Source: a virus
IMG/VR virus record: IMGVR_UViG_3300022725_000151
Span: 1-45,167 of that record
Direction: 5' to 3' (one strand)
DNA: 45,167 nucleotides
In this document: positions 3,106-33,095 of the stretch, one piece after another
Position numbering within the stretch: the first letter of the stretch is position 1
Layout of the letters: every line of letters begins with the position of its first letter
Notes under the pieces: model-generated
Database searches by the model: none
What the model saw: the letters and a program-made list of their open reading frames with translations, nothing else
Told to the model about the DNA's origin: nothing
Position numbers and translations under genes: made by a program

Positions 3106-3230
3106 GTTCGGAGTTCGGAGTTTGGAGTTCATGAAAGATCGAACAACTCCGAACAACTCCGAACAACTCCGAACTAACTCCGAACTAACTCCGAACTAAC
3201 TCCGAACTAACTCCGAACTAACTCCGAACT
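3106..3230 (+). repeat. 10/11-bp tandem repeat array with inverted leader copies
   Basis: Three exact copies of GAACAACTCC (3141-3170) are followed by five exact copies of GAACTAACTCC (3171-3225) and a partial copy. Just before them, 3106-3130 carries the same GTTCGGAGTT motif in the opposite orientation, so the two parts can pair. The period is close to one helical turn. The rest of 2986-3278 holds only the terminator hairpin above and no gene. Confidence 0.85.
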
Positions 3231-3278
3231 AGCCAGTAAGTGAGCGCGCGTAATTTAAACAGTAGATACCACCGGGCA

Positions 3279-4046: not shown

Positions 4047-6419
4047 ATGAAGCTTTGGTTTACAAGTAAGGAGCTTGCTGAGATCCAACCCCCTGGGTTG
4101 CCTGGTACTGAAAGAGGCATTCAGAAACGGTTTAAGCCGTTGTTGGGAAAGCTTGAGAAAGAGGGCAAGGTTCGCAAGCGCCAAGGTCGGGGTGGTGGCT
4201 GGGAGTATCACATCAGTTGCCTCCCTCCGGAGACGCAAGAGTATTTACTAACGCGCGGCATCGATGTCGATGCCGACGGTAACGCCACATATATAGATGT
4301 GGTGGCAACAGAAATTAGACCTGATGTGCAGGCCAGCCCTGCCGTGGACGCTACACGGGTAACTGCGACCTCTGCCCCCACGGAGCCTGCACAGATGGCC
4401 GATCGCGTACCTGCACCTGATTCCTCGCGATCGGTTTCCTCTTTGGCCCTCACCCCCAGCCCCTCTCCCAAAACTGGGAGAGGGGGGCAAGACTCAACAA
4501 TTCGCGCGATTGTGCGGGTGACGATACCTGAAGAGGAGCCGACGGGCATCCCCAAACGGGAGCGGGTCGCGATCGCCCGAGCGGCTTATATTCAAGCTCA
4601 GCTCGAATATTGCGCTGACAGGGGCATCCCTGCGGTGGACTGCGAGTATGAGTTTTGCCAACAGTTAAAGGCGGGTTTAGTACGCGTTTATGGCTGGGTT
4701 AGACGCCTGCAAAAACCGCCGAGTCGGTCTTCGCTGTGCCGCTGGAAGACGGAGGCGAGGCAAGAAAACCTGCTGGGCATGGCCCCAGGGCAGAAGACTG
4801 GGCGTCCGAGCGTATTTGCAGAGAACGAAATCCTGGCGGGGTTTGTGATTGCGGCGGTGTGCAAGTGGCCCCACGTGAAATACAGCCATTTATATAGAGT
4901 GGTGCGCGATCGCTTTCCCAACTTAGAGGCCACCGAGCCGACGGTGCGGCGATTTGTGCAGCGCTGGAAGCAGGAAAATAAGGGCACCTTTGCCCTGCTG
5001 TGCAATCCTGACGATTGGAAGAATCGCTTCTTACCGGCCTTTGGTTCTTACTCTGAAGGGGTGACGGCGCTGAATGACCTGTGGGAGCTGGACAGCACCC
5101 CGGCTGATGTGATGCTCGCCGATGGCCGCTACGCGATCGTGGGCTGCATTGATGTCTACAGCCGACGGGCGAAACTGCTCGTGACCAAGACCTCGAAGGC
5201 GGTGGCGATCATCGCCCTGCTGCGACGCTGCATCCTGGATTGGGGCGTGCCCCGTGCGGTGAAAACTGACAACGGGAAGGACTACACGGCCTTCCACATT
5301 CAGCACACGCTGGAGGCGTTGCAGATTGACCATCGGCTGTGTCAGCCGTTTAGCCCGGAACAGAAGCCCCATGTGGAACGCTTTTTAGGCACGTTTTTAC
5401 ACGACTTTTTAGAGTTATTGCCCGGCTATATTGGGCACTCGGTGGGCGATAGAAAGAAAATTGAGAGCCGGAAATCGTTTGCCGAGCGCTTTGGCGACAA
5501 GGCGATCGAGGTCAACCTTGACCTGAAAACCTTTCAAGCCTTTTGCGACAACTGGTGTGAGGGCGATTATGACAACGAAGTCCACGGGACGACGGGTAAG
5601 TCGCCTGCTCAGATGGCGGTGGGGCAGCCCATTCGCACGATTGAAAACGAACGCCAGCTAGACCTGCTGATGGCCGAGACGGCGACCCGAACCGTTCAGA
5701 AGAAAGGCATCAAGATCGAGGGGCGCTGGTTTATTGCGCCAGATCTGGCCCCCCGCATTGGCGAACAAGTGCATCTGCGACTGCCGCAGGATGCGGGCAT
5801 CGTCTACGTCTTTACCGATCCGAGCTGTACCGAATTTATTTGTGTGGCGGAGGACCCCGATTGCACTGGTGCGAATCGCCAGGAGATTGCCCGCAAGGCG
5901 AAGCTGTGGCGCAAACAGCAGGCCGAAGCCGTGAGAAATATTCGCAAGCTGATCAAGGAGACGAACCTGGACGAAGTGCCGATGGAGATGGTAGAGGCCA
6001 GCCGTCAAGCTGCCGCCAAAATCGAGGTGCTACCAGGGCAGAAAGAGTTGGCGCAGTTGCCAGCTTCGTCGGCTCAGGCGGTAGATCAATATCTGACGAT
6101 GACCAGCCCACAGGAGCCGATACCGCTGACGCCCGTTGAGCGACAGCACATCGAGAAACGGGAACAGGCCAAAGCCCAGCAAGAGGCGAAGCAAAACAGC
6201 CTGACGCCCATGCAGCGCGAGATGATCAAAGACTTTCCTGGCTGGTTTGACCGGGAAATTTTTAACCCCTTGTATCTGGAAAAGCGAACGGTGGAAAGCC
6301 TGCGGCCTGAAGTGCAGGCGTACATCGCCAAGCAAAAAGAAGAGGGGTGGTTTCAGGGGCATTGGAAAGAAGCGATGTCGCGATACAACTATCGCACCAC
6401 CCCACCCAAAGCCATGTAA
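4047..6419 (+). CDS. MuA-like DDE transposase
   Basis: 790 residues. The N-terminus (1-70: WFTSKELAEIQ...GLPGTERGIQKR) is the Mu-type winged helix used for enhancer or end binding. The RNase-H core carries the DDE triad: D349 in WELDSTP, D408 in KTDNGKDY and E444 in PHVERFLGTF. A beta-barrel-like segment and a basic C-terminal helix region follow, the latter where MuA contacts MuB. It catalyses strand transfer of the phage ends into target DNA. AAGG precedes ATG 4047. Odd feature: residues 130-150 (LALTPSPSPKTGRGGQ) are encoded by a genomic palindromic repeat inside an otherwise low-complexity linker. The MuB gene follows closely. Confidence 0.95.
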   Translation: MKLWFTSKELAEIQPPGLPGTERGIQKRFKPLLGKLEKEGKVRKRQGRGGGWEYHISCLPPETQEYLLTRGIDVDADGNATYIDVVATEIRPDVQASPAVDATRVTATSAPTEPAQMADRVPAPDSSRSVSSLALTPSPSPKTGRGGQDSTIRAIVRVTIPEEEPTGIPKRERVAIARAAYIQAQLEYCADRGIPAVDCEYEFCQQLKAGLVRVYGWVRRLQKPPSRSSLCRWKTEARQENLLGMAPGQKTGRPSVFAENEILAGFVIAAVCKWPHVKYSHLYRVVRDRFPNLEATEPTVRRFVQRWKQENKGTFALLCNPDDWKNRFLPAFGSYSEGVTALNDLWELDSTPADVMLADGRYAIVGCIDVYSRRAKLLVTKTSKAVAIIALLRRCILDWGVPRAVKTDNGKDYTAFHIQHTLEALQIDHRLCQPFSPEQKPHVERFLGTFLHDFLELLPGYIGHSVGDRKKIESRKSFAERFGDKAIEVNLDLKTFQAFCDNWCEGDYDNEVHGTTGKSPAQMAVGQPIRTIENERQLDLLMAETATRTVQKKGIKIEGRWFIAPDLAPRIGEQVHLRLPQDAGIVYVFTDPSCTEFICVAEDPDCTGANRQEIARKAKLWRKQQAEAVRNIRKLIKETNLDEVPMEMVEASRQAAAKIEVLPGQKELAQLPASSAQAVDQYLTMTSPQEPIPLTPVERQHIEKREQAKAQQEAKQNSLTPMQREMIKDFPGWFDREIFNPLYLEKRTVESLRPEVQAYIAKQKEEGWFQGHWKEAMSRYNYRTTPPKAM
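4460..4485 (+). repeat. Palindromic cyanobacterial repeat inside the transposase gene
   Basis: CCCCTCTCCCA (4460-4470), loop AAAC, TGGGAGAGGGG (4475-4485) is a perfect 11-bp stem, preceded by CCCTCACCCCCAG. Repeats of this form are common between genes of cyanobacteria (general knowledge). Here one lies in frame and supplies part of a linker. Confidence 0.8.
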
Positions 6420-6425
6420 AAACCC

Positions 6426-6443
6426 CTGCCCCAAGTGGGGCAG
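6426..6443 (+). other. Short hairpin between the transposase and ATPase genes
   Basis: CTGCCCC, AAGT, GGGGCAG is a perfect 7-bp stem 7 bases after the transposase stop. It has no T-tract. It may tune expression of the ATPase relative to the transposase or be a small repeat. Confidence 0.5.
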
Positions 6444-6479
6444 AGGCTTAGTCAAAGCTATGTAATTCGAGTATACGAC

Positions 6480-7187
6480 ATGAAAAACATCGTAGTGCAA
6501 ACCCAAAATGTGGCGCGGCTGATTGCCGCCCATGCCGCCCTCAAGGAATCGGGCTATCAATTGCCGAAGATAGGGCTGGTGCATGGCCTGGCGGGGGCGG
6601 GAAAAACGACCGCGATCGCCCATCTGAGCCAGACCGAAGGCGGGTGCTTTGTGCGGGCCACCGCCGTGTGGACCCCCAAGGCCATGCTGCAAGCCATTTT
6701 GCGGGAACTAGAACGTGAAGATATTGCTGGCAACAACCAGACCAAGCTGGATGAAGTCATCAAGCGCCTGGCGATCATGAACCAACCGCTATTTGTGGAC
6801 GAGGCTGATTACCTATTTCAGCGACCCGCCACGCTGGACATCTTGCGCGACATCCACGACCAGGCTGGGGTGCCCCTATTTCTAATCGGGATGGAGCGCA
6901 TTAGCCGTAAGGTCAACAGTCGCGAGCTGGTAGCTAGCCGAGTGGCTCAAGAGATCAAGTTCAGCCCGTTGGATCTGGCTGATACGCGGTTGGTGGCTGA
7001 TACCCTTTGCGACCTGGAGCTCTCCGACGATCTGTTGGCGGACCTGCATCAACGGGCGCAGGGCAGCATTCGTCGGATCACAGTGGGGCTCTCAGTCATT
7101 GAAGGCTTTGGCCGCCAGATGGGCCTACACAGCATTGACCTGGAAGCTTGGAAATCGGCTGGCCGTCCCTACTTCCTAGAGCGCTAG
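6480..7187 (+). CDS. MuB-like AAA+ target-selection ATPase
   Basis: 235 residues from ATG 6480; a longer frame from 6435 overlaps the hairpin region. Walker A is GLAGAGKT (36-43), Walker B LFVDEAD (104-110), and a sensor-type segment LFLIGMERIS follows. This is the ExeA/TniB-related AAA_22 class. In Mu, B polymerises on DNA, picks the target and stimulates A. Unlike Mu B, no separate N-terminal HTH is seen, so it is shorter than Mu B (312 residues). The gene lies directly after the transposase, as in Mu. Confidence 0.92.
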   Translation: MKNIVVQTQNVARLIAAHAALKESGYQLPKIGLVHGLAGAGKTTAIAHLSQTEGGCFVRATAVWTPKAMLQAILRELEREDIAGNNQTKLDEVIKRLAIMNQPLFVDEADYLFQRPATLDILRDIHDQAGVPLFLIGMERISRKVNSRELVASRVAQEIKFSPLDLADTRLVADTLCDLELSDDLLADLHQRAQGSIRRITVGLSVIEGFGRQMGLHSIDLEAWKSAGRPYFLER

Positions 7188-7229: not shown

Positions 7230-7841
7230 ATGACAACTTACCGAAAGATACGAACTCAAAGAAAAACGGCAGAAGCCAAACTGTTGATTTGGTCCACCAT
7301 TCGCAGACTCAAAGACTTCCGCATTCCGCCGTTGGCGGAACGGCTAGAACTGCCAGACCGCACTGTATACGACTACATCAATTACTTAGAGCGCATCCAA
7401 TATGTGCGGCAACTGGATGAATACGATCGCCGAGGGCAACGGGGCAACTCTGCCACCTATCGCCTGGAATACGACACGGGCATGTATCCCCCTTATGAAA
7501 GTAAGGGCCAGTTGATCGATCCGAATTTGCGGCCTGAGTTACGGGCTAAGCGCGAGAAGTTGTGGCAGGCCATTCGCTTGTTGCGTAGTTGCGACTCTGC
7601 ACAATTGGCCTCGGTGACCGACCAAAACCAGGGAGCGATATCCCGGTATCTCAAGTTTCTCGCTGACCACGAATATCTCAGGGTGTCGAGTCCCAACGCT
7701 AGCGGCAAGGCCGGTAGCTGGATTACCTACTTCCTGATCAACGATACCGGGCCGCTGGCTCCGATGCGTCGGCGCGATGGTTCCCTGTATGACCCGAACG
7801 AAGACCTCAAAGAAATTAAGGAGAGAGCACTATGCCGTTGA
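7230..7841 (+). CDS. Two-domain winged-helix DNA-binding protein
   Basis: 203 residues. Two winged-helix segments are visible: residues 15-60 (TIRRLKDFRIPPLAERLELPDRTVYDYINYLE) and 105-150 (IRLLRSCDSAQLASVTDQNQGAISRYLKFLADHEYLRV). Each is followed by a polar wing, consistent with an early regulator or replication accessory. It is the first gene after MuB, and its end overlaps the next gene by 10 bases. Specific function not recognised. Confidence 0.75.
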   Translation: MTTYRKIRTQRKTAEAKLLIWSTIRRLKDFRIPPLAERLELPDRTVYDYINYLERIQYVRQLDEYDRRGQRGNSATYRLEYDTGMYPPYESKGQLIDPNLRPELRAKREKLWQAIRLLRSCDSAQLASVTDQNQGAISRYLKFLADHEYLRVSSPNASGKAGSWITYFLINDTGPLAPMRRRDGSLYDPNEDLKEIKERALCR

Positions 7842-8323
7842 TCACAAGACAACCCAAATTTCTCAATAGTGAACTGGTGCTGGGCCAGCTAAAAAGCCCT
7901 GGCGAGATTGCTGCATTGATCCGGTATTGGGATACCGAATGGAGCAATTTGCGGGCAGCTTTGGCCGGCACTCAGGGGGCAGAGCGGCAGGCTTTGCTGC
8001 GATCAGCCGACATGGCGGCAACTATCGCCTTTCGGCTGGAAGACGTATTAAAGGATCGGAAACGGCACAACCCCAATCGATTGCGGGGATTGCTGAAAAC
8101 GGCGATTCGCGAACGGTTTGCCGATGGCGAGGTAGCTCTGCTGCCAGCAGCGGCGCAGGCAATGCGGCTGCTGGCAGCAGAGCTACAGTCTGGAGCAACA
8201 AGACAGATGTTGGCAGCTGAGCTGGAGGTTTCGCCCTCTTATTTCAGCTCAGTCGTGAATTTCAAGTTGCCATTTAGCGACAAGTTTGCGCAGAAGGTGA
8301 TCGATACCTACGGCGCTGAGTAG
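7832..8323 (+). CDS. Early protein with C-terminal HTH, unknown
   Basis: 163 residues, starting inside the previous gene with GGAGAG upstream. The N-terminal two-thirds is helical and basic (LKDRKRHNPNRLRGLLKTAIRERF). The last 45 residues read as a helix-turn-helix, RQMLAAELEVSPSYFSSVVNFK. Probably a DNA-binding partner of the preceding winged-helix protein. No family recognised. Confidence 0.72.
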   Translation: MPLITRQPKFLNSELVLGQLKSPGEIAALIRYWDTEWSNLRAALAGTQGAERQALLRSADMAATIAFRLEDVLKDRKRHNPNRLRGLLKTAIRERFADGEVALLPAAAQAMRLLAAELQSGATRQMLAAELEVSPSYFSSVVNFKLPFSDKFAQKVIDTYGAE

Positions 8324-8329
8324 AGAAAA

Positions 8330-8402
8330 GCCACGTCGCGGCAACGACGTGGCGGCTTGACCATCGCGGGGGCGAGAGTCCCCGCCCCTAAGGAGTTTCA
8401 CG
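8330..8402 (+). ncRNA. Hairpin-plus-leader element, copy 1
   Basis: GCCACGTCG (8330-8338), loop CGGCAA, CGACGTGGC (8345-8353) is a perfect 9-bp stem. A second palindrome GCGGGG...CCCCGC (8366-8385) follows, then GGAGTTTCACG (8392-8402) directly before the ATG. Two other leaders in the window (10784, 12356) share the CGGCAA loop and the GGAGTTTCACG sequence but have different stems. Confidence 0.65.
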
Positions 8403-8870
8403 ATGGACACATTAACGATATCGGGGATTGACCCCACAATCCAAAAGATAGGAAGAATCTACGATCGCCCCTCTCGCGGGAGCGGCGATGCGTTCCTCAC
8501 GACGGAACGTCCCAAAAATTGGGCTCTGGCGAAATGGACGCCTTTTGGCTGGGCCAATGTGGCGCGGTTTGGCACATTCGCTGAGGCCGAGCGGCATCGG
8601 CGAGTGCTGGAACGGGTGAGTGGAGTGGAGTGCGTGATTAGTCACGTTGAGGATGGGGCTCAGCTCCGCAGTTATGAGGTGCTGATCAATCGGATGCGGT
8701 TGGCGGGCCGGAGGCCCAACACACAATCGCCCACTGCCCAAGAGGCGGCGATCACGTCGGTGATTTGTGATGCCCACCTGTGGGCGGCGCGGCGGGGTCA
8801 TGCGATTAGCGGACGGCTACACCAGGGGCTCTTGTGTATGGGCTTTGCGCCTGCGCTGGAGGTGGAATGA
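8403..8870 (+). CDS. Early protein, unknown
   Basis: 155 residues directly after a GGAG leader. The N-terminal half holds SRGSGDAFLTTERPKNW and ALAKWTPFGWANVARF, an aromatic-rich segment; a helical region with AEAERHRRVLERV follows. Around residues 100-106, AGRRPNTQ derives from a small GGGCC-GGA-GGCCC palindrome (8705-8717). The stop overlaps the next start. No family recognised. Confidence 0.7.
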   Translation: MDTLTISGIDPTIQKIGRIYDRPSRGSGDAFLTTERPKNWALAKWTPFGWANVARFGTFAEAERHRRVLERVSGVECVISHVEDGAQLRSYEVLINRMRLAGRRPNTQSPTAQEAAITSVICDAHLWAARRGHAISGRLHQGLLCMGFAPALEVE

Positions 8871-9142
8871 TGCCAAAGCTAACGGTTGACCAACGACTGC
8901 AAGGCATTGAAGGTTTGACTTTTAAGCGACTGAACAGCACGTTACTGAGCTTGCATGATACCGAAGGCGCGCTGGCTTTCTTGCGGCGATTTGAGGGGCG
9001 TTGGTATCTGGCTTTGCTGGAGTCGAGAGAATACCCGCCTGAACCGATGCCGCCGTTGTCGCGGGACTTTGCCTGGACGGAGGACGAAGAGGCGGCGCTG
9101 AAGCGTCTACTGACGAAAGTGCTGGGTGAGGAGGTGCGCTGA
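8870..9142 (+). CDS. Small early protein, unknown
   Basis: 90 residues. ATG 8870 has GGAGG seven bases upstream; the ATG three bases earlier is equally in frame. The protein has a Trp/Arg-rich middle (LRRFEGRWYLALLESREYPP) and an acidic helical end. It overlaps both neighbours by one to four bases, showing translational coupling in a tight early operon. No domain recognised. Confidence 0.68.
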   Translation: MPKLTVDQRLQGIEGLTFKRLNSTLLSLHDTEGALAFLRRFEGRWYLALLESREYPPEPMPPLSRDFAWTEDEEAALKRLLTKVLGEEVR

Positions 9143-9405
9143 TGGGAGTTCCAGTTTTTATTGAGCGACCCTTTCCTAACCAGGAGCTGAAGCTCTGGCT
9201 GGAAGGCGAGATCGCGGCTCACGCGGGGGAGGTGGTGATGGAAGGCGAGGCCCCTGTCGATGGGGGTGACACGGTGATGGTGATGGCGGCCTTTCCTGAT
9301 GTGGCGACTGCCCTGGTCTTTGCGGCCAAGTGCGATCGCCTGGAGCTAAAGCCGGAAATCGTAACGACGTTTAGGGTGCGGAGTGAGGTGCTGTATGGCG
9401 AGTGA
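9142..9405 (+). CDS. Small acidic early protein, unknown
   Basis: 87 residues, with a start coupled to the preceding stop. Strongly acidic, beginning MGVPVFIERPFPNQELKLW and then Gly/Asp/Val-rich. The pattern of short strands and an amphipathic helix (VATALVFAAKCDRL) suggests a small alpha/beta protein. Function unknown. Confidence 0.66.
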   Translation: MGVPVFIERPFPNQELKLWLEGEIAAHAGEVVMEGEAPVDGGDTVMVMAAFPDVATALVFAAKCDRLELKPEIVTTFRVRSEVLYGE

Positions 9406-9754
9406 TGGTGGAATGTCGGGCAAGATGCCCGATCAACAAGAGTGGGTTGAGGAGTTGCGCCGGCAGTGTATGGCGACCAGCCAGCGGAAGGTGGCTGAGA
9501 AGCTGGGGATTTCGCCAGCAGCGGTAAACCAACTGCTGGCGGGAAAGTATCCGGGGGACTTGCGGGCGATGGAAGCCCGTGTGCGAGGGGTCTATTTGGC
9601 CGGGGTGGTGGATTGCCCGGTACTGGGCGAGCTGTCGTCTAAGCATTGCCTGGACTGGCAACGTAAGCCGTTTGCGGCAACGAACCCGATCAGGGTGCAG
9701 ATGTATCGGGCTTGCCGTGATGGATGTCCCAATTCGAGTTTGGGAGGTGCGTGA
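9395..9754 (+). CDS. Small HTH protein with Cys-containing tail
   Basis: 119 residues from ATG 9395, with GAGG six bases upstream. Residues 25-55 (MATSQRKVAEKLGISPAAVNQLLAGKYPG) form a Cro-type HTH. The tail holds Cys residues (VDCPVLG, KHCLDW, YRACRDGCPNS) that might bind a metal. The first residues (MSGKMPDQQE) are encoded by a CGGGC...GCCCG palindrome at 9417-9431 inserted near the gene start. Probably an early regulator; the family resembles small phage HTH proteins related to the Mu Ner neighbourhood. Confidence 0.7.
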   Translation: MASDGGMSGKMPDQQEWVEELRRQCMATSQRKVAEKLGISPAAVNQLLAGKYPGDLRAMEARVRGVYLAGVVDCPVLGELSSKHCLDWQRKPFAATNPIRVQMYRACRDGCPNSSLGGA

Positions 9755-10668
9755 TGGGCGGAACCAATGATGTCGTCAAGAAATTTCGGGAGCCGGGAAT
9801 CGCCGATCGCGTGATGGCCTTGTGCAAGTTGCAGGATAAGAAGCCGGAAAACCTCGCTATTGCCCTGGGCATTAACCGCATCGGTTCCTGGAAACGGCAG
9901 ATCGAACAAGAGATGGATCGGCTGATTGAGGAGTGTGATTTGCCGCTGGTGAAGACGGTGCATGGGGGACTCACAGCCGAGGGTGAGCGCAAACAGGATA
10001 CCTATGTGACGTATGGGTTGCAGCGGGCGAAACCGGAGTTATTTGCGCCTGCGGGCCAGGGGCCAGCGGTGAAGGTTTTCACGATAGATGAGTTGAAGGC
10101 GAAGGAACTGGAGGAAGAAATGGGCAGGAATCAACGGACGCCGATGCAGTTGGAGGCGGATCTGGAGCGGATTTTAGGAGAGTTGGCGGACCCAACGATC
10201 TTTCCCGACAGCAGTTTGAGCCTGGAGGGGATTAAGCGACGGGGCAAGTTTAGCGATAGCTTTTTCTATGCGCGGAATGGAGCGCGTAAGGAGAAGGCGC
10301 AGAAGGCTCTGGCGGATGAGATTATGCGGCGGAGCAAGTTGGAACGGCGTGAAGAGCCGAAAGCCGTGGCCTCGTCTACCCCGGCTGAGGCGGGTGATGA
10401 GGTTGATTTGGCGGCGACACTATTGAGCTTACAGGCTCAGATCGAGGAGCTGCGGGCGGAGAATGAGCGGCTGCGGGATGGACAGGCGGGTACGCCTGTC
10501 GCACAAGGTCAAGAGGTACTTGCGGTGGCTTCGTTGAAGGCTCGGCTGGAAAGTTTGGAGCAAGCGATCGAGTCGCTGACGATGGAGATTAAGGCTGCCG
10601 AAGGAGAGCGCGATCGCCTAACGCAAAAGCGAGATGCGATTCAGGAAGTGATTGAGCTTTTGCGTTAG
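9754..10668 (+). CDS. Coiled-coil early protein with HTH-like start
   Basis: 304 residues; ATG 9754 overlaps the previous stop (ATGA) and follows GGGAGG. Residues 10-60 hold a possible helix-turn-helix (PENLAIALGINRIGSWKRQIEQEM). The middle is charged. From about residue 215 onward there are long heptad-like helices (LSLQAQIEELRAENERLR, LEQAIESLTMEIKAAE). A palindrome (10481-10500) encodes DGQAGTPV between the coils. Possibly a host-factor or nucleoprotein role as for phage early proteins; no family recognised. Confidence 0.68.
   Translation: MGGTNDVVKKFREPGIADRVMALCKLQDKKPENLAIALGINRIGSWKRQIEQEMDRLIEECDLPLVKTVHGGLTAEGERKQDTYVTYGLQRAKPELFAPAGQGPAVKVFTIDELKAKELEEEMGRNQRTPMQLEADLERILGELADPTIFPDSSLSLEGIKRRGKFSDSFFYARNGARKEKAQKALADEIMRRSKLERREEPKAVASSTPAEAGDEVDLAATLLSLQAQIEELRAENERLRDGQAGTPVAQGQEVLAVASLKARLESLEQAIESLTMEIKAAEGERDRLTQKRDAIQEVIELLR
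10481..10500 (+). repeat. Perfect palindrome inside the coiled-coil gene
   Basis: GACAGGCG, GGTA, CGCCTGTC is a perfect 8-bp stem. It lies in frame at the junction of two coiled-coil stretches, like other small palindromes of this window that sit in linkers. Confidence 0.7.
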
Positions 10669-10678
10669 GCGGTTGGCA

Positions 10679-10709
10679 GACCTCGGAGGTTTTTAAAACC
10701 TCCGAGGTC
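10679..10709 (+). repeat. 31-bp perfect palindromic repeat
   Basis: Two 15-base arms, GACCTCGGAGGTTTT and its complement, surround a single T. The palindrome starts 11 bases after the preceding stop. It may serve as a terminator; palindromes of this form are frequent repeats in cyanobacterial genomes (general knowledge). Confidence 0.8.
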
Positions 10710-10718
10710 CGAAGAGAC

Positions 10719-10782
10719 GGGGCTACTGGGGACATGCATAGGGCCGTCAGGCAACCGTCCCGTTCGACTCGGGATAGCCCCC
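10719..10782 (+). ncRNA. tRNA-like fold (acceptor stem plus T arm)
   Basis: GGGGCTA (10719-10725) pairs perfectly over 7 bp with TAGCCCC (10775-10781). The 3' strand directly follows a 5-bp T arm: TCCCG, loop TTCGACT, CGGGA (10758-10774). The loop satisfies the tRNA rules TTCRANY and G53-C61. The 32 bases between have no D arm or anticodon arm that I can fold, so this is not a decoding tRNA. It may be a decayed tRNA, a tRNA mimic or a processed leader. CCA is not encoded. Confidence 0.5.
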
Positions 10783-10783
10783 T

Positions 10784-10840
10784 TCCCAGCGGCAACTGGG
10801 ATTGTCCGGTTACGAGAACAAATTCAAATGGAGTTTCACG
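10784..10840 (+). ncRNA. Hairpin-plus-leader element, copy 2
   Basis: TCCCAG (10784-10789), loop CGGCAA, CTGGGA (10796-10801), then GGAGTTTCACG at 10830-10840, four bases before ATG 10845. It shares loop and leader with the elements at 8330 and 12356, while the stem sequence differs. Confidence 0.62.
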
Positions 10841-10844
10841 AACG

Positions 10845-11042
10845 ATGGCTGTTAAAACACACAATCCTTTGGCGGCTTTGGATAGCAAGCGTTTGCGCAG
10901 GATGGTGAAGGGCCTGGTCATCAGCCTGGGCTACTTGCAGCACTGGCTGGATAAGGGCGGCGATAACGCCTTCATTTCGACGGCTGCGAGCAGCTTGGAT
11001 ATCGCGATCGATGCGCTGAATGACTATCTGGACCAAGCCTGA
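10845..11042 (+). CDS. Small helical early protein, unknown
   Basis: 65 residues from ATG 10845, preceded by the GGAGTTTCACG leader. Basic start (HNPLAALDSKRLRRMVKGL), then two helices ending in IAIDALNDYLDQA. No domain recognised. The stop overlaps the next ATG (TGATGA). Confidence 0.66.
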   Translation: MAVKTHNPLAALDSKRLRRMVKGLVISLGYLQHWLDKGGDNAFISTAASSLDIAIDALNDYLDQA

Positions 11043-11302
11043 TGAAGCGACTGATCTACGGGGTGTGTCTGCTATCGACGCTGGCTCTGGTGGGCTGTAA
11101 CGACGATGGCGACCTGGCCCCGGCTGTAATGAACCAAATTTTGGAGACGACTCATGACCAATCAATTCTTGCCCCCACCTCCGGCCTGGGCAAAGCGACA
11201 GGCCCAACCAACCTGGCCTTACTACGATGGCTTTCCCCGGCAGTATCGGGTGAATCAGGAGACGGGGAAGTTTATGCGAGGCACCGAGGATCTCGGGGCT
11301 GA
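11042..11302 (+). CDS. Predicted lipoprotein, overlapping the next gene
   Basis: The first 19 residues form a lipoprotein signal (MKRLIYGVCLL, lipobox LVGC at about 16-19) followed by NDDGD. An Asp at +2 or +3 is compatible with inner-membrane retention by E. coli rules. The frame stays open to 11302, overlapping the next gene by 149 bases, and the distal part looks like non-coding reading. The original gene was probably only about 40 residues and lost its stop, or shifts frame near 11130. A small phage lipoprotein would suit superinfection exclusion, as known for other phages, but this is inference. Confidence 0.55.
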   Translation: MKRLIYGVCLLSTLALVGCNDDGDLAPAVMNQILETTHDQSILAPTSGLGKATGPTNLALLRWLSPAVSGESGDGEVYARHRGSRG

Positions 11303-11723
11303 ACTGGAGCTGATCATCTTTGATTTTCATTGGGCAGCGGGCGCAATGGGCAAAGGCGTCGAGCGTTGGGGCTTTGGCCTGCAAGTGTGGCTGGATGTGG
11401 GCTTTGTCGATGCCGATGGCTTCGCCTCGATCTGCTCACTGAAGAAGGACTCGGCAACAAATTTGCATGTGCGGTTGCAGCAGATTTACAAGGCGGGGGC
11501 AGCTCCGCATTGTTACCGCATTCGCCTGTCGCTGGAGCCAGTGGAGGCGGAAGACGGTATCTACTACGTGGCCCAGGTCGCCGACGTGCAGCTCGTCACC
11601 GAGGCCCAATGGAATGCGGTTAAGCAGTTTTGCGATTCGGGGCGGTTCCAATTCTTGCTGATGGGCGAGACGACGAAAGGGCCGCACGACGAGTTGCCCC
11701 AGTTTGACGGATCGGTTTATTGA
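11154..11723 (+). CDS. Early protein, unknown
   Basis: 189 residues, with TTGGAG just upstream of ATG 11154. The N-terminus is Pro/Trp-rich (PPPPAWAKRQAQPTWPYYDGFPRQYRV). An alpha/beta region follows with FDFHWAAGAMGKGVERWGFG and EDGIYYVAQVADVQLV. The steady use of strands suggests a single-strand-binding or OB-like fold, not proven. Codon use is typical of its neighbours, so this frame rather than the overlapping lipoprotein frame is the coding one here. Confidence 0.72.
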   Translation: MTNQFLPPPPAWAKRQAQPTWPYYDGFPRQYRVNQETGKFMRGTEDLGAELELIIFDFHWAAGAMGKGVERWGFGLQVWLDVGFVDADGFASICSLKKDSATNLHVRLQQIYKAGAAPHCYRIRLSLEPVEAEDGIYYVAQVADVQLVTEAQWNAVKQFCDSGRFQFLLMGETTKGPHDELPQFDGSVY

Positions 11724-11734
11724 CCACACCACCA

Positions 11735-11754
11735 GGGCGCACGGCTGTGCGCCC
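11735..11754 (+). repeat. GGGCGCAC palindromic repeat
   Basis: GGGCGCAC, GGCT, GTGCGCCC, a perfect 8-bp stem between two genes. A near-identical copy (GGGCGCAC, GGCG, GTGCGCCC) lies at 31066-31085 after the major capsid gene. Confidence 0.75.
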
Positions 11755-11762
11755 CTACGACT

Positions 11763-12275
11763 ATGCCCCTCACTGCACAGGCGGTTAAAGACGAATTAAA
11801 GAAACGGGTGGGGTCGCGCTTTGCGATTCAGGCCCCAGAGCTGGCGGCGCAGATTCTCAAGCGGATACCCACCGAGGCGGATACGCGGAATGTGCGGCGA
11901 TTGGTGAAGCAGTTGCGGTTGGCGGGTGAGCCCATTTGCTCGCACAGCAATCGCGGCTACTGGTGGGCCGCCAACCCGGAAGAGTTGGAGGCGGCCTGTG
12001 AGTTTTTGCGGGGTAAGGCGATGAGCAGCCTGAAGCAGATCAGCCACTTGCGGCGATTTGTGAAGCCGACGCTGGCGGGGCAGTTGCCTTTGCTCAATCA
12101 GCCGACTGATGAGCCTGAGGCCAGCGTGACCGAGCTGCCGGGGAATTTGTTGGCGCTGCTGGATGATTACTGCTCAGCCAAAGGGCTCAGCCGCGATGAG
12201 GTGATCGCCGCGTCGTTGGCGCGTTACCTGACTGAGCAGGGCATGAAAGCGGCGCAACGGTTTGCGGGGCGTTGA
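11763..12275 (+). CDS. Winged-helix protein with C-terminal dimerisation-like helices
   Basis: 170 residues. Residues 5-75 read as a winged helix (TAQAVKDELKKRVGSRF...TRNVRRLVKQLRLAGEPICSHSNRGYWW), where YWW is the typical wing strand. A polar linker follows, then residues 125-165 (LLALLDDYCSAKGLSRDEVIAASLARYLTEQG) of ribbon-helix-helix appearance. Probably a DNA-binding regulator or replication factor of the early region. Confidence 0.7.
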   Translation: MPLTAQAVKDELKKRVGSRFAIQAPELAAQILKRIPTEADTRNVRRLVKQLRLAGEPICSHSNRGYWWAANPEELEAACEFLRGKAMSSLKQISHLRRFVKPTLAGQLPLLNQPTDEPEASVTELPGNLLALLDDYCSAKGLSRDEVIAASLARYLTEQGMKAAQRFAGR

Positions 12276-12276
12276 T

Positions 12277-12462
12277 ATGTGGGGTCATCTGCGCTGGATC
12301 AATGTGGTCGTTTGGACTGTGGCGATCTGGCTGAATATCGGTTTGCTGCATTTTTGGGCACAGCGGCAACTGTGCCCGCCAGCGGGCGAAAGGCCCAATC
12401 AACTATCGGGCGAGACGCCCAATCAACAAGAGGAGTTTCACGATTATGGCAACGAAGACTAA
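12277..12462 (+). CDS. Small single-pass membrane protein with repeat-derived tail
   Basis: 61 residues. One transmembrane helix (about 7-27: NVVVWTVAIWLNIGLLHFW). The tail after residue 30 is encoded by two tandem palindromic repeats and reads PPAGERPNQLSGETPNQQEE. The original protein may have ended soon after the helix. ATG 12277 follows the preceding stop by one base. The hairpin of RNA element copy 3 lies inside its coding region. Confidence 0.55.
   Translation: MWGHLRWINVVVWTVAIWLNIGLLHFWAQRQLCPPAGERPNQLSGETPNQQEEFHDYGNED
12356..12442 (+). ncRNA. Hairpin-plus-leader element, copy 3
   Basis: GGGCACAG (12356-12363), loop CGGCAA, CTGTGCCC (12370-12377) is a perfect 8-bp stem. Two GGGC...GCCC palindromes follow (about 12384-12396 and 12407-12420), then GGAGTTTCACG (12432-12442) before ATG 12446. 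Same loop and leader as the copies at 8330 and 10784. Confidence 0.65.
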
Positions 12463-12706
12463 GACGAAACCCATGACGCTGCTGGAACAGTATCTACTGC
12501 TCTGTCTGGCGGTGGCGGTGAAAATTATGGCTCAGCAGACGGGGCGATCGTTTGCGGTCTGCACTCAAATGATCATGGGCCAGGGGGCGATCGCGTTTAA
12601 GGAGTCGATGCGGAGTAAGCGCCATGTGACTGATCCAATCCTTGCGGGCATTCGCCAGATCATGGGCAAGCAAGACTTTCTCTCGCAAAAAGAGGATGAC
12701 CGCTAA
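12446..12706 (+). CDS. Small early protein, unknown
   Basis: 86 residues behind the GGAGTTTCACG leader. Lys/Thr-rich start (MATKTKTKPM), a hydrophobic stretch (LLEQYLLLCLAVAVKIMAQQ) that could be a buried helix or membrane segment, then a basic end (MRSKRHVTDPILAGIRQIMGK). No family recognised. Confidence 0.66.
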   Translation: MATKTKTKPMTLLEQYLLLCLAVAVKIMAQQTGRSFAVCTQMIMGQGAIAFKESMRSKRHVTDPILAGIRQIMGKQDFLSQKEDDR

Positions 12707-12905
12707 GACCCGTTTCATTGCCTGCTGCGTGTGCGATGAAACGTTTATGGAGGCGGCCTATGTTTGCTGCTGGGACGCCTTCAGCCACGCTGGCTACTTT
12801 GCCTACCTGTTTCCTGGCTGCCCCGTCTGGGTGGAGCACGAAGTGGGCGATGAACGCTACGAATGCGCCGTTTTTCAGAATTCAGATGAGGACGAAGAAG
12901 ATTGA
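12696..12905 (+). CDS. Small Cys- and aromatic-rich protein
   Basis: 69 residues from ATG 12696, with AAAGAGG upstream, overlapping the previous gene by 11 bases. It contains a CCVC cluster near residue 9, a second CC at YVCCW and single Cys residues in GCP and YECA, so it may bind zinc. The tail is strongly acidic (NSDEDEED). Overlap with both neighbours implies coupling. Function unknown; acidic small phage proteins often inhibit host enzymes. Confidence 0.62.
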   Translation: MTAKTRFIACCVCDETFMEAAYVCCWDAFSHAGYFAYLFPGCPVWVEHEVGDERYECAVFQNSDEDEED

Positions 12906-13129
12906 AATTTATCAGCCCCAAAACCAACAAGGTTTACGATCTGCCGTTCCATGTGTCAGTCAAAATCCCGCCCGAGTTGGTTGAAGAGATCAAGGGGAAA
13001 GACGGGATACCCGTTTTACAGATAGCCGAGACCCGAGAACTCAAGTTGACGATGTTCCATGAAGTCAACTGGGGTGACGAAGAAGACAAAGATCTGGAGT
13101 GCCAAACGGGGTTTACCTATGTCAAATGA
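12902..13129 (+). CDS. Small protein with TTG start, unknown
   Basis: 75 residues, starting at TTG 12902 inside the preceding stop, with purine-rich GAGGACGAAGAAG upstream. The protein is strand-rich with alternating Lys/Glu (KFISPKTNKVYDLPFHVSVKI) and an acidic end. No domain recognised. Overlaps the methyltransferase start by 11 bases. Confidence 0.62.
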   Translation: MKFISPKTNKVYDLPFHVSVKIPPELVEEIKGKDGIPVLQIAETRELKLTMFHEVNWGDEEDKDLECQTGFTYVK

Positions 13130-14273
13130 CGTTTTTAAGCCTGATAGCAGTCCTGAGACGATTTCGCAGGGACTGAAGGAGGGCTGGATTGTCCCTTCAA
13201 ATACTGGAGTCCCTAGCTTTCCCCCCAAGGATTTTTCTGGCGATTGCGCAATTGCGCAATCGCAGACCGTGGCGGTTGAGATTCTGCGCCCCCTTTCGCC
13301 GAAGGAGGCCAGATACGTTTGTGATCAGATCAAATACAACGAGCGCTCTAATCGCCAATTGCTCTTGGTCCTTTGGGAAGGGGAAGGCTGGCGAGCATTG
13401 GGTTATAAAAGCTGGCGAGAGTGCGTGGCTGAAGAGTTTCAGCAGTCGCAACGCCACTGCTATCAGTTGCTAGCCGCCGCCCAAGTCGGAAGAAATCTTT
13501 GCGCAATTGCGCAAAACCCTGACGACATCCCTGAATCGCATTTGCGTCCGCTCGCCAAGTTGGAGCCGGAGCTTCAGGTGCAGGCTTATCAAGAAGCGTT
13601 GGCTGAGGTGGGCGAGAATCGCAGGCTGACGGGCGACAAAGTGAAGAAGGTTGTGAATCGCTATCTGGCAAGCAAGCTGTCGGCAGCAAATGGCGAAGCG
13701 CCTGGCCGCAAGGCGCTGGATTATTACCCGACTGATCAGCGCTTAACGCGGGGCTTTATTAAGCTGATGGGCGACAAGATCGACTGGCACCAGGGCAACA
13801 TCATTGAGCCGTGTGTTGGTGGTGGCGACATTGTTGCCTGCCTACCTGAAGGGTGCGTGGTCACCACGAACGACATCAACCCTGATTGTGAGGCTGATTA
13901 TCATCGCGATGCGACGATGCGGATCTCCTGGCAAAGTGCATTTCCGATGTTTTCGATCGCGATCACCAACCCCCCTTTTGATGGGGCAATTGAAATCCTG
14001 GAGAACGCCTGGGAGCACACCAGTGACTGGTGCATTTTTCTGTTGCGACTGAGCTTTGCTGAAGCTGCAAAGACCCGGCGTGATTTCCTGATCCGAAACG
14101 CCGATCATCTGCGCTATTTCGTTCCGGTCAATCCACGACCAGGCTTTCGAGAGACGCCAGGCGGAGACATCAGTACCGTTGCCTGGTTCGCCTGGAGCAA
14201 GCGGTGGAGTTGGGAGCGAGCCGGTTACGACAGCCCGTTCAAGTTTTTAGTTGACTGGAAAATAGAGGACTAA
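13119..14273 (+). CDS. N6-adenine DNA methyltransferase with ParB-like N-terminal region
   Basis: 384 residues from ATG 13119. The C-terminal half is an adenine methyltransferase: DYYPTDQRLTRGFI (201-214), motif I EPCVGGGD (230-237) for S-adenosylmethionine, TNDINPD, and catalytic NPPF (284-287). The N-terminal half (60-180) has helices with KYNERSNRQLLLVLWEGEGW and an LRPLAKLEPELQVQAYQEAL segment like that in ParB/KorB-type or phage adaptor proteins, perhaps for DNA recognition. Probably protects phage DNA from host restriction, in the role Mom plays in Mu by other chemistry. Two GCGCAATTGCGC palindromes lie inside the gene. Confidence 0.85.
   Translation: MSNDVFKPDSSPETISQGLKEGWIVPSNTGVPSFPPKDFSGDCAIAQSQTVAVEILRPLSPKEARYVCDQIKYNERSNRQLLLVLWEGEGWRALGYKSWRECVAEEFQQSQRHCYQLLAAAQVGRNLCAIAQNPDDIPESHLRPLAKLEPELQVQAYQEALAEVGENRRLTGDKVKKVVNRYLASKLSAANGEAPGRKALDYYPTDQRLTRGFIKLMGDKIDWHQGNIIEPCVGGGDIVACLPEGCVVTTNDINPDCEADYHRDATMRISWQSAFPMFSIAITNPPFDGAIEILENAWEHTSDWCIFLLRLSFAEAAKTRRDFLIRNADHLRYFVPVNPRPGFRETPGGDISTVAWFAWSKRWSWERAGYDSPFKFLVDWKIED
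13240..13263 (+). repeat. 24-bp perfect palindrome inside the methyltransferase gene
   Basis: The arms GCGATTGCGCAA and TTGCGCAATCGC meet without spacer. The core GCGCAATTGCGC recurs at about 13500-13511. Both copies are read as CAIAQ in the protein. It may be an autoregulatory site or a repeat insertion. Confidence 0.7.
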
Positions 14274-14280
14274 CTGTTCA

Positions 14281-14733
14281 ATGGAGAAAGAAATTCAAGT
14301 GATGGCGATCGCGTATCGTTTGGCCTTATCTCGCCTCGCATCCATACTCAGCACTCCGCCGTCTGACCTGACGGAGCATTTCAAAGAGCAGGCTGAGGCG
14401 ATGGTGGCGCAGGCCAGCCCCACGCAAACTGATTGCATCGTGCAGCAGGTAATGGATAGCTTTGGGCGCCCTGGTGATCCGCCGATGATTGCGGCAGGCA
14501 CTTCGGCCATGCAGTTTCTCAATGATCTGGAGAAGCTACAGCGGGAGCAGCTGAACGTGGCGACCAACTACTCAGGCGATGAGGATCGCCCCTGCCTCAG
14601 CATGGAGCTGCGAACCACCTCAGGGTGCGGCTATCTGATCGCCGTGCGGGTTGAGGCCGAAACCGAGCAGGATAAAGCTCTGCTTAAACAGCGCATTGAA
14701 GGCTATCTGAAGACACTGGAAACGTTGAGGTAA
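14281..14733 (+). CDS. Early protein, unknown
   Basis: 150 residues. Helical N-terminal half (QVMAIAYRLALSRLASIL, AMVAQASPTQTDCIVQQVMD), then a strand-rich end (RPCLSMELRTTSGCGYLIAVRVEAETEQD) and a final helix. No clear ribosome site. It sits between the methyltransferase and a coupled small-gene set. No family recognised. Confidence 0.68.
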   Translation: MEKEIQVMAIAYRLALSRLASILSTPPSDLTEHFKEQAEAMVAQASPTQTDCIVQQVMDSFGRPGDPPMIAAGTSAMQFLNDLEKLQREQLNVATNYSGDEDRPCLSMELRTTSGCGYLIAVRVEAETEQDKALLKQRIEGYLKTLETLR

Positions 14734-31065: not shown

Positions 31066-31085
31066 GGGCGCACGGCGGTGCGCCC
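31066..31085 (+). repeat. GGGCGCAC palindromic repeat, second copy
   Basis: GGGCGCAC, GGCG, GTGCGCCC, 14 bases after the capsid stop. Same family as 11735-11754. Confidence 0.72.
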
Positions 31086-31555: not shown

Positions 31556-31634
31556 CCTGTTGTGGGCCTCTGGCCCGCCATTCAAAAACGGGCAAGATGC
31601 CCGTGCATACCAGTCCTCTAACCCCAACCCCACC

Positions 31635-32878: not shown

Positions 32879-33095
32879 GTCCCCGAATTCGGGCATCTTG
32901 CCCGATCAGCCGCTCCCTCATCCGTCCATCGTCCAGTCCTACACGCCAGTATTGGAAAGAATTTTCGACACTGTGCAGGTCATCCAAGCTTTTGACGACG
33001 ATGACACCGACGATGCCGATGATGACGAACCCGTCATTGATGACGACGACGATATCCCCGACGACGACGACTTCCCGCCCACCCAGCCCGGCTAA
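32862..33095 (+). CDS. Small Asp-rich protein, unknown
   Basis: 77 residues; the last 40 have long Asp runs (DDDDTDDADDDEP). SGILPDQP near the start is encoded by the palindrome 32890-32904. Its highly acidic tail could mimic DNA or bind calcium, but no family is recognised. Coupled to the connector before it. Confidence 0.55.
   Translation: MNPVIESPNSGILPDQPLPHPSIVQSYTPVLERIFDTVQVIQAFDDDDTDDADDDEPVIDDDDDIPDDDDFPPTQPG

Follow-up and report, generated by a model that had tools for sequence, protein, structure and literature searches.

The early region of this phage raises a simple question, namely why the same six-base loop should recur on three different stems, each time in front of a small gene, and what such an element would do there. 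The stretch of DNA analysed here (the window) is a virus record of 45,167 bases, in which PHROG and Pfam matches place a Mu-type transposase at 4047-6419 and a MuB-type ATPase at 6435-7187, with a terminase (18613) and a portal protein (21528) further along. The phage is Mu-like. The HIP1 motif, GCGATCGC, is abundant in cyanobacterial genomes, and because it occurs in 28 copies in the window, the host is probably a cyanobacterium. tRNA genes were looked for and none was found, and a AACTCCGAACTA-like unit stands in a tandem run at 3139-3235, to the left of the phage early region.

The three elements, together with the genes directly behind them, are composed as follows.

8330..8353, plus strand: hairpin of element 1, 9 bp, loop CGGCAA, 6 nt past the TAG stop of the ORF at 7832-8323
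8373..8377, plus strand: CGAGA block of element 1, with GGAG 19 nt downstream
8392..8402, plus strand: leader GGAGTTTCACG of element 1, abutting the ATG at 8403
8403..8870, plus strand: gene P1 behind element 1, 155 aa, no known relatives
10784..10801, plus strand: hairpin of element 2, 6 bp, loop CGGCAA
10813..10817, plus strand: CGAGA block of element 2, with GGAG 17 nt downstream
10830..10840, plus strand: leader GGAGTTTCACG of element 2, with the ATG at 10845 after 4 nt
10845..11042, plus strand: gene P2 behind element 2, 65 aa, no known relatives
12356..12377, plus strand: hairpin of element 3, 8 bp, loop CGGCAA
12411..12415, plus strand: CGAGA block of element 3, with GGAG 21 nt downstream
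12432..12442, plus strand: leader GGAGTTTCACG of element 3, with the ATG at 12446 after 3 nt
12446..12706, plus strand: gene P3 behind element 3, 86 aa, no known relatives

The initial annotation had described three CGGCAA hairpins on unlike stems of 9, 6 and 8 bp, a constant leader before the start codons and small unknown genes behind, and all of this was borne out. The three are the only perfect-stem CGGCAA hairpins (at least 4 bp) on either strand of the window, while 100 dinucleotide shuffles gave a mean of 0.01 for such hairpins of at least 6 bp. The stems are unrelated in sequence with the pairing kept, all closed by G-C, the one of element 2 being short. The 11-nt GGAGTTTCACG occurs in the window at these three places alone, 0, 4 and 3 nt from the ATG, and none of the products of P1, P2 and P3 has a match in PHROGs, Pfam or the loci searched. 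Between hairpin and leader, CGAGA is common to all three, 17-21 nt 5' of GGAG, an in-register sharing of a 5-mer for which random early-region windows gave P = 0.0034; the spacers from the end of the hairpin to GGAG are 38, 28 and 54 nt in elements 1, 2 and 3. On the sense strand the order is always the same, that is, a hairpin with a free stem and a fixed loop, CGAGA, GGAGTTTCACG and the start codon. Among the Mu-like loci compared at that stage, the window was alone in having one hexaloop recur three times on different stems. As for element 3, a possible ORF for a single-span membrane protein of 61 aa (12277-12462) encloses both hairpin and tail and extends into the beginning of P3, and hairpin 3 may therefore be coding sequence.

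Could the elements simply be scattered palindromes of host origin, or copies arisen by chance, with no function in the phage? The window is indeed rich in REP-like palindromes, some of them adjoining the elements, but that kind keeps its stems, whereas elements 1-3 keep only loop and leader, and the expectation from the shuffles speaks against chance copies, so that we consider this explanation improbable. The REP-like palindromes (11735-11754, 31066-31085, 9416-9432, 31588-31604, 32889-32905 and 12383-12427) fall into a few recurring types, GGGCGCACGGC.GTGCGCCC on the one hand and TCGGGCAAGATGCCCGA and its relatives on the other, and several adjoin gene starts. A perfect 14-bp hairpin, GACCTCGGAGGTTTTTAAAACCTCCGAGGTC, lies at 10679-10709 in the gap 5' of element 2.

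The surroundings of the elements were revealed by comparison with the closest relative found, L124, whose transposase and MuB share 46% and 56% identity, respectively, with those of the window. Against L124, the early region resolves into a conserved backbone and exactly three accessory-gene islands, and each of the three contains one hairpin element.

7832..9397, plus strand: accessory island A, with element 1 inside; its flanking genes are adjacent in L124
9754..11153, plus strand: accessory island B, with element 2 inside
12277..14733, plus strand: accessory island C, with element 3 inside and a DNA methyltransferase included

This placement of every copy in an accessory island fits the gene-leader part, and that part alone, of the mobile cassette suggested in the initial annotation. 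A search of IMG/VR for relatives of P1 and of the protein encoded at 7230 found none. One may go further and regard the elements as junction scars of cassette insertion, which would mark the joins between island and backbone and would either travel with captured genes or serve in their capture. The presence of one element per accessory island and of none in the relatives agrees with such an origin, but the far ends of the islands show neither a direct repeat nor an element, the flanks fail to align past short blocks, and element 2 lies in the interior of island B and not at its edge; we think this origin rather improbable.

No close homologue of the whole element came to light. Two pattern scans of IMG/VR, from which near relatives of the record were possibly excluded, found no second virus with a CGGCAA hairpin and a GGAG-NNN-CACG tail, and no such hairpin is present in the nearest relatives L124, L126, L127 and L137. 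In L124, GGAGAAACACGATG (6999-7013) leads an island gene and resembles GGAGTTTCACGATG, with no CGGCAA hairpin. The IMG/VR matches to CGGCAA plus GGAGTTTCACG (108 stretches) and to GCGGCAAC plus GGAG-NNN-CACG (60 stretches) had no stem longer than 5 bp and were set aside as chance only, as were the plasmid matches that elements 1 and 3 gave by DNA similarity; a DNA similarity comparison of 8300-10900 with phages gave no match. In a 105-kb virus contig (L209, 492-515), a 9-bp CAG-CGGCAA-CTG hairpin stands 11 nt 5' of GGAGTT and a start codon, possibly by chance, since the pattern used was chosen for it.

The loop itself has a much wider distribution. A hairpin is a frequent feature of the transposase-MuB gap in Mu-like phages. 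It lies 40-75 nt upstream of MuB, as a rule directly past a stop codon and ahead of the Shine-Dalgarno (SD) sequence of the next gene, and is mostly closed by G-C; its stems are unrelated from phage to phage, and its hexaloop has the form C-N-G-S-M-A or T-N-G-S-M-G. When every loop was admitted to the count, C-A stood at positions 1 and 6 in 13 cases, T-G in 11, and C-G or T-A in none. Strict-consensus hairpins with stems of at least 7 bp numbered 20 in 15 kb of MuB leaders versus 6 in 1.8 Mb elsewhere, the rest of the loci being scanned on both strands. The class was defined on the leaders where it was first seen, and its test consists of this contrast with the remaining loci and of three independent leaders: in three sets of further genomes, the non-duplicate hexaloop MuB leaders fit the class in 3/3 cases, two of them with CGGCAA. 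Covariation counts were made on hairpins preselected as hairpins and hence are not independent evidence of pairing. The claim of a structured element with a constant loop and changing but complementary stems, tied to gene starts, is supported, with these additional examples of the loop class before MuB.

CGGCAA is among the two most frequent loops once the non-redundant leaders are pooled (the MuB leaders of L176, L223, L304 and L345 carry it), and a model of the loop ranks it 11 of 4096, or 19th when trained without any CGGCAA leader. By hexaloop consensus and by loop-model rank, then, the loop of the window belongs to the MuB-leader class, and elements 1-3 share its perfect, G-C-closed stems of at least 6 bp, though their position does not conform: none lies in the transposase-MuB gap, they lead other early genes, and the window alone has the GGAGTTTCACG tail. 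The window's own gap contains another hairpin, CTGCCCC-AAGT-GGGGCAG, with the tetraloop AAGT (6426-6443). Rfam returned no family at or above the gathering threshold in the window, and in ten loci with MuB-leader hairpins it gave no match to the leader hairpin, its matches (hammerhead II, tRNA, C4 and isrK) falling elsewhere only. Type II hammerhead ribozymes were seen in such loci at L134:9037-9102, L191:8257-8322, L169:8631-8693 and L144:1371-1438 and 7091-7160.

On which strand would the hairpin act? The loop score is almost equal when the loop is read on the opposite strand, and the MuB leaders themselves lean to the minus strand. At least five A in the eight nucleotides 5' of the hairpin, equivalent to a T-tract on the minus strand, were found in 20/35 leaders, as against a sense T-tract in 1/35; the stem positions outside Watson-Crick pairing are A.C in sense, and so G.U in antisense, by 10 to 0 (7 to 0 without L169, which holds three, and two of the seven may be coding). 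From the A-rich flanks and this asymmetry, the MuB-leader hairpins look more like intrinsic terminators of leftward transcription, with a structure apparently better kept in minus-strand RNA. On a rival reading, the elements of the window would be minus-strand intrinsic terminators, or insulators, ending leftward transcription at the borders of gene blocks, and the conserved loop would be a favoured stable terminator loop. A GC-rich perfect hairpin is what a Rho-independent terminator requires, and element 1, with six A in the eight nucleotides before it, is terminator-like on the minus strand with the T-rich tail TTTTCTC. Elements 2 and 3, in contrast, have one A each at these positions and a T-tract directly after the hairpin on neither strand; the loops of intrinsic terminators are usually not conserved, and the other terminators of the Mu-like loci are mostly without this loop class. 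A terminator also leaves the constant sense-strand GGAGTTTCACG and CGAGA unexplained. For the window we therefore rank the terminator as a possible but less probable explanation than a leader element, to which the constancy of these two sense-strand blocks points.

Our preference, held tentatively and at somewhat less than even confidence, is that all three copies represent a single cis-acting leader module, which serves accessory early genes and acts on translation or on mRNA stability. In the sense mRNA, the module would consist of a stable hairpin with any stem and a fixed loop, followed by CGAGA, the Shine-Dalgarno leader GGAGTTTCACG and the start codon. A common factor, whether a phage protein, a host protein or the ribosome, would read loop and leader and would thereby govern how the following gene block is translated or how stable its mRNA is, bringing three islands of foreign genes under one control, with a loop drawn from the wider class used in Mu-like MuB leaders. 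The action on RNA, the sense strand, the reader factor and the sign of its effect are what we infer here, and the stem exceptions of the MuB leaders, which side with minus-strand RNA, count against the leader module. So do the near-equal loop score on the opposite strand, the lack of such a hairpin in the nearest relatives, the negative search for one SD-sequestering fold in all three elements and the possible coding position of hairpin 3. In its favour stand the recurrence far beyond the shuffles, the tail confined to three places, the constant order of blocks, the changed but still paired stems, the one element per island, the enrichment of the loop class before MuB, the high rank of CGGCAA in the loop model and the fit of the three independent leaders.

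Two known systems invite comparison. Lambda boxB also presents constant-loop hairpins in several copies in an early operon, a layout that the window recalls, and the elements might accordingly be nut-like sites of processive antitermination. The loop of boxB, however, is a GNRNA pentaloop accompanied by boxA, whereas the window has the hexaloop CGGCAA, which does not conform to GNRNA, with a constant, SD-linked tail that adjoins start codons, and an antitermination site is to our mind very improbable.

The second system comes from a Mu-like phage. In the Com/mom operator of phage Mu, a hexaloop hairpin lies 5' of the start region, SELEX showed that the loop is recognised and the stem variable, and Com has been proposed to open or close the mom start via loop binding (PMC6483171). 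Our elements likewise place a hexaloop hairpin upstream of the start, with a constant loop and variable stems. They differ in sequence, as the motif of Com, CC(N)2-3GAG, is closed by a C-G pair (PMC6483171) and the present one is CGGCAA with G-C, and a translation-inhibiting structure is not common to elements 1-3. Fold prediction was searched for an SD-sequestering fold shared by all three, and none was found; in element 2 the SD region is predicted to be able to pair with 10761-10770 around the hairpin, a fold that elements 1 and 3 lack. Through such pairing, a factor that binds the loop of element 2 could expose or occlude the start, much as proposed for Com/mom. A profile search of the record for a Com homologue (zinc-ribbon, PF10122) found none. 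A small Cys-rich ORF (CCVC...CC, 69 aa) is present at 12696-12905, shortly 5' of the methyltransferase; it has no Pfam match and is not Com by profile.

Could the leader module be one case of something more general? The recurrence of this class of loop before MuB in many distant transposable phages points to an undescribed genetic control element. We entertain, as a doubtful extension, an undescribed RNA operator common to Mu-like phages, which would control MuB in many of them and would have been redeployed here for three accessory islands; it would be a hairpin whose hexaloop is spanned by a C.A or U.G mispair and has G in third place, read by a common factor.

Whichever strand proves to act, a leader hairpin that is widespread among Mu-like phages and has no entry in Rfam has been brought to light. 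The leader module, if it works as we tentatively propose, would also offer a way to study how a temperate phage brings genes that it has recently gained into its early programme.
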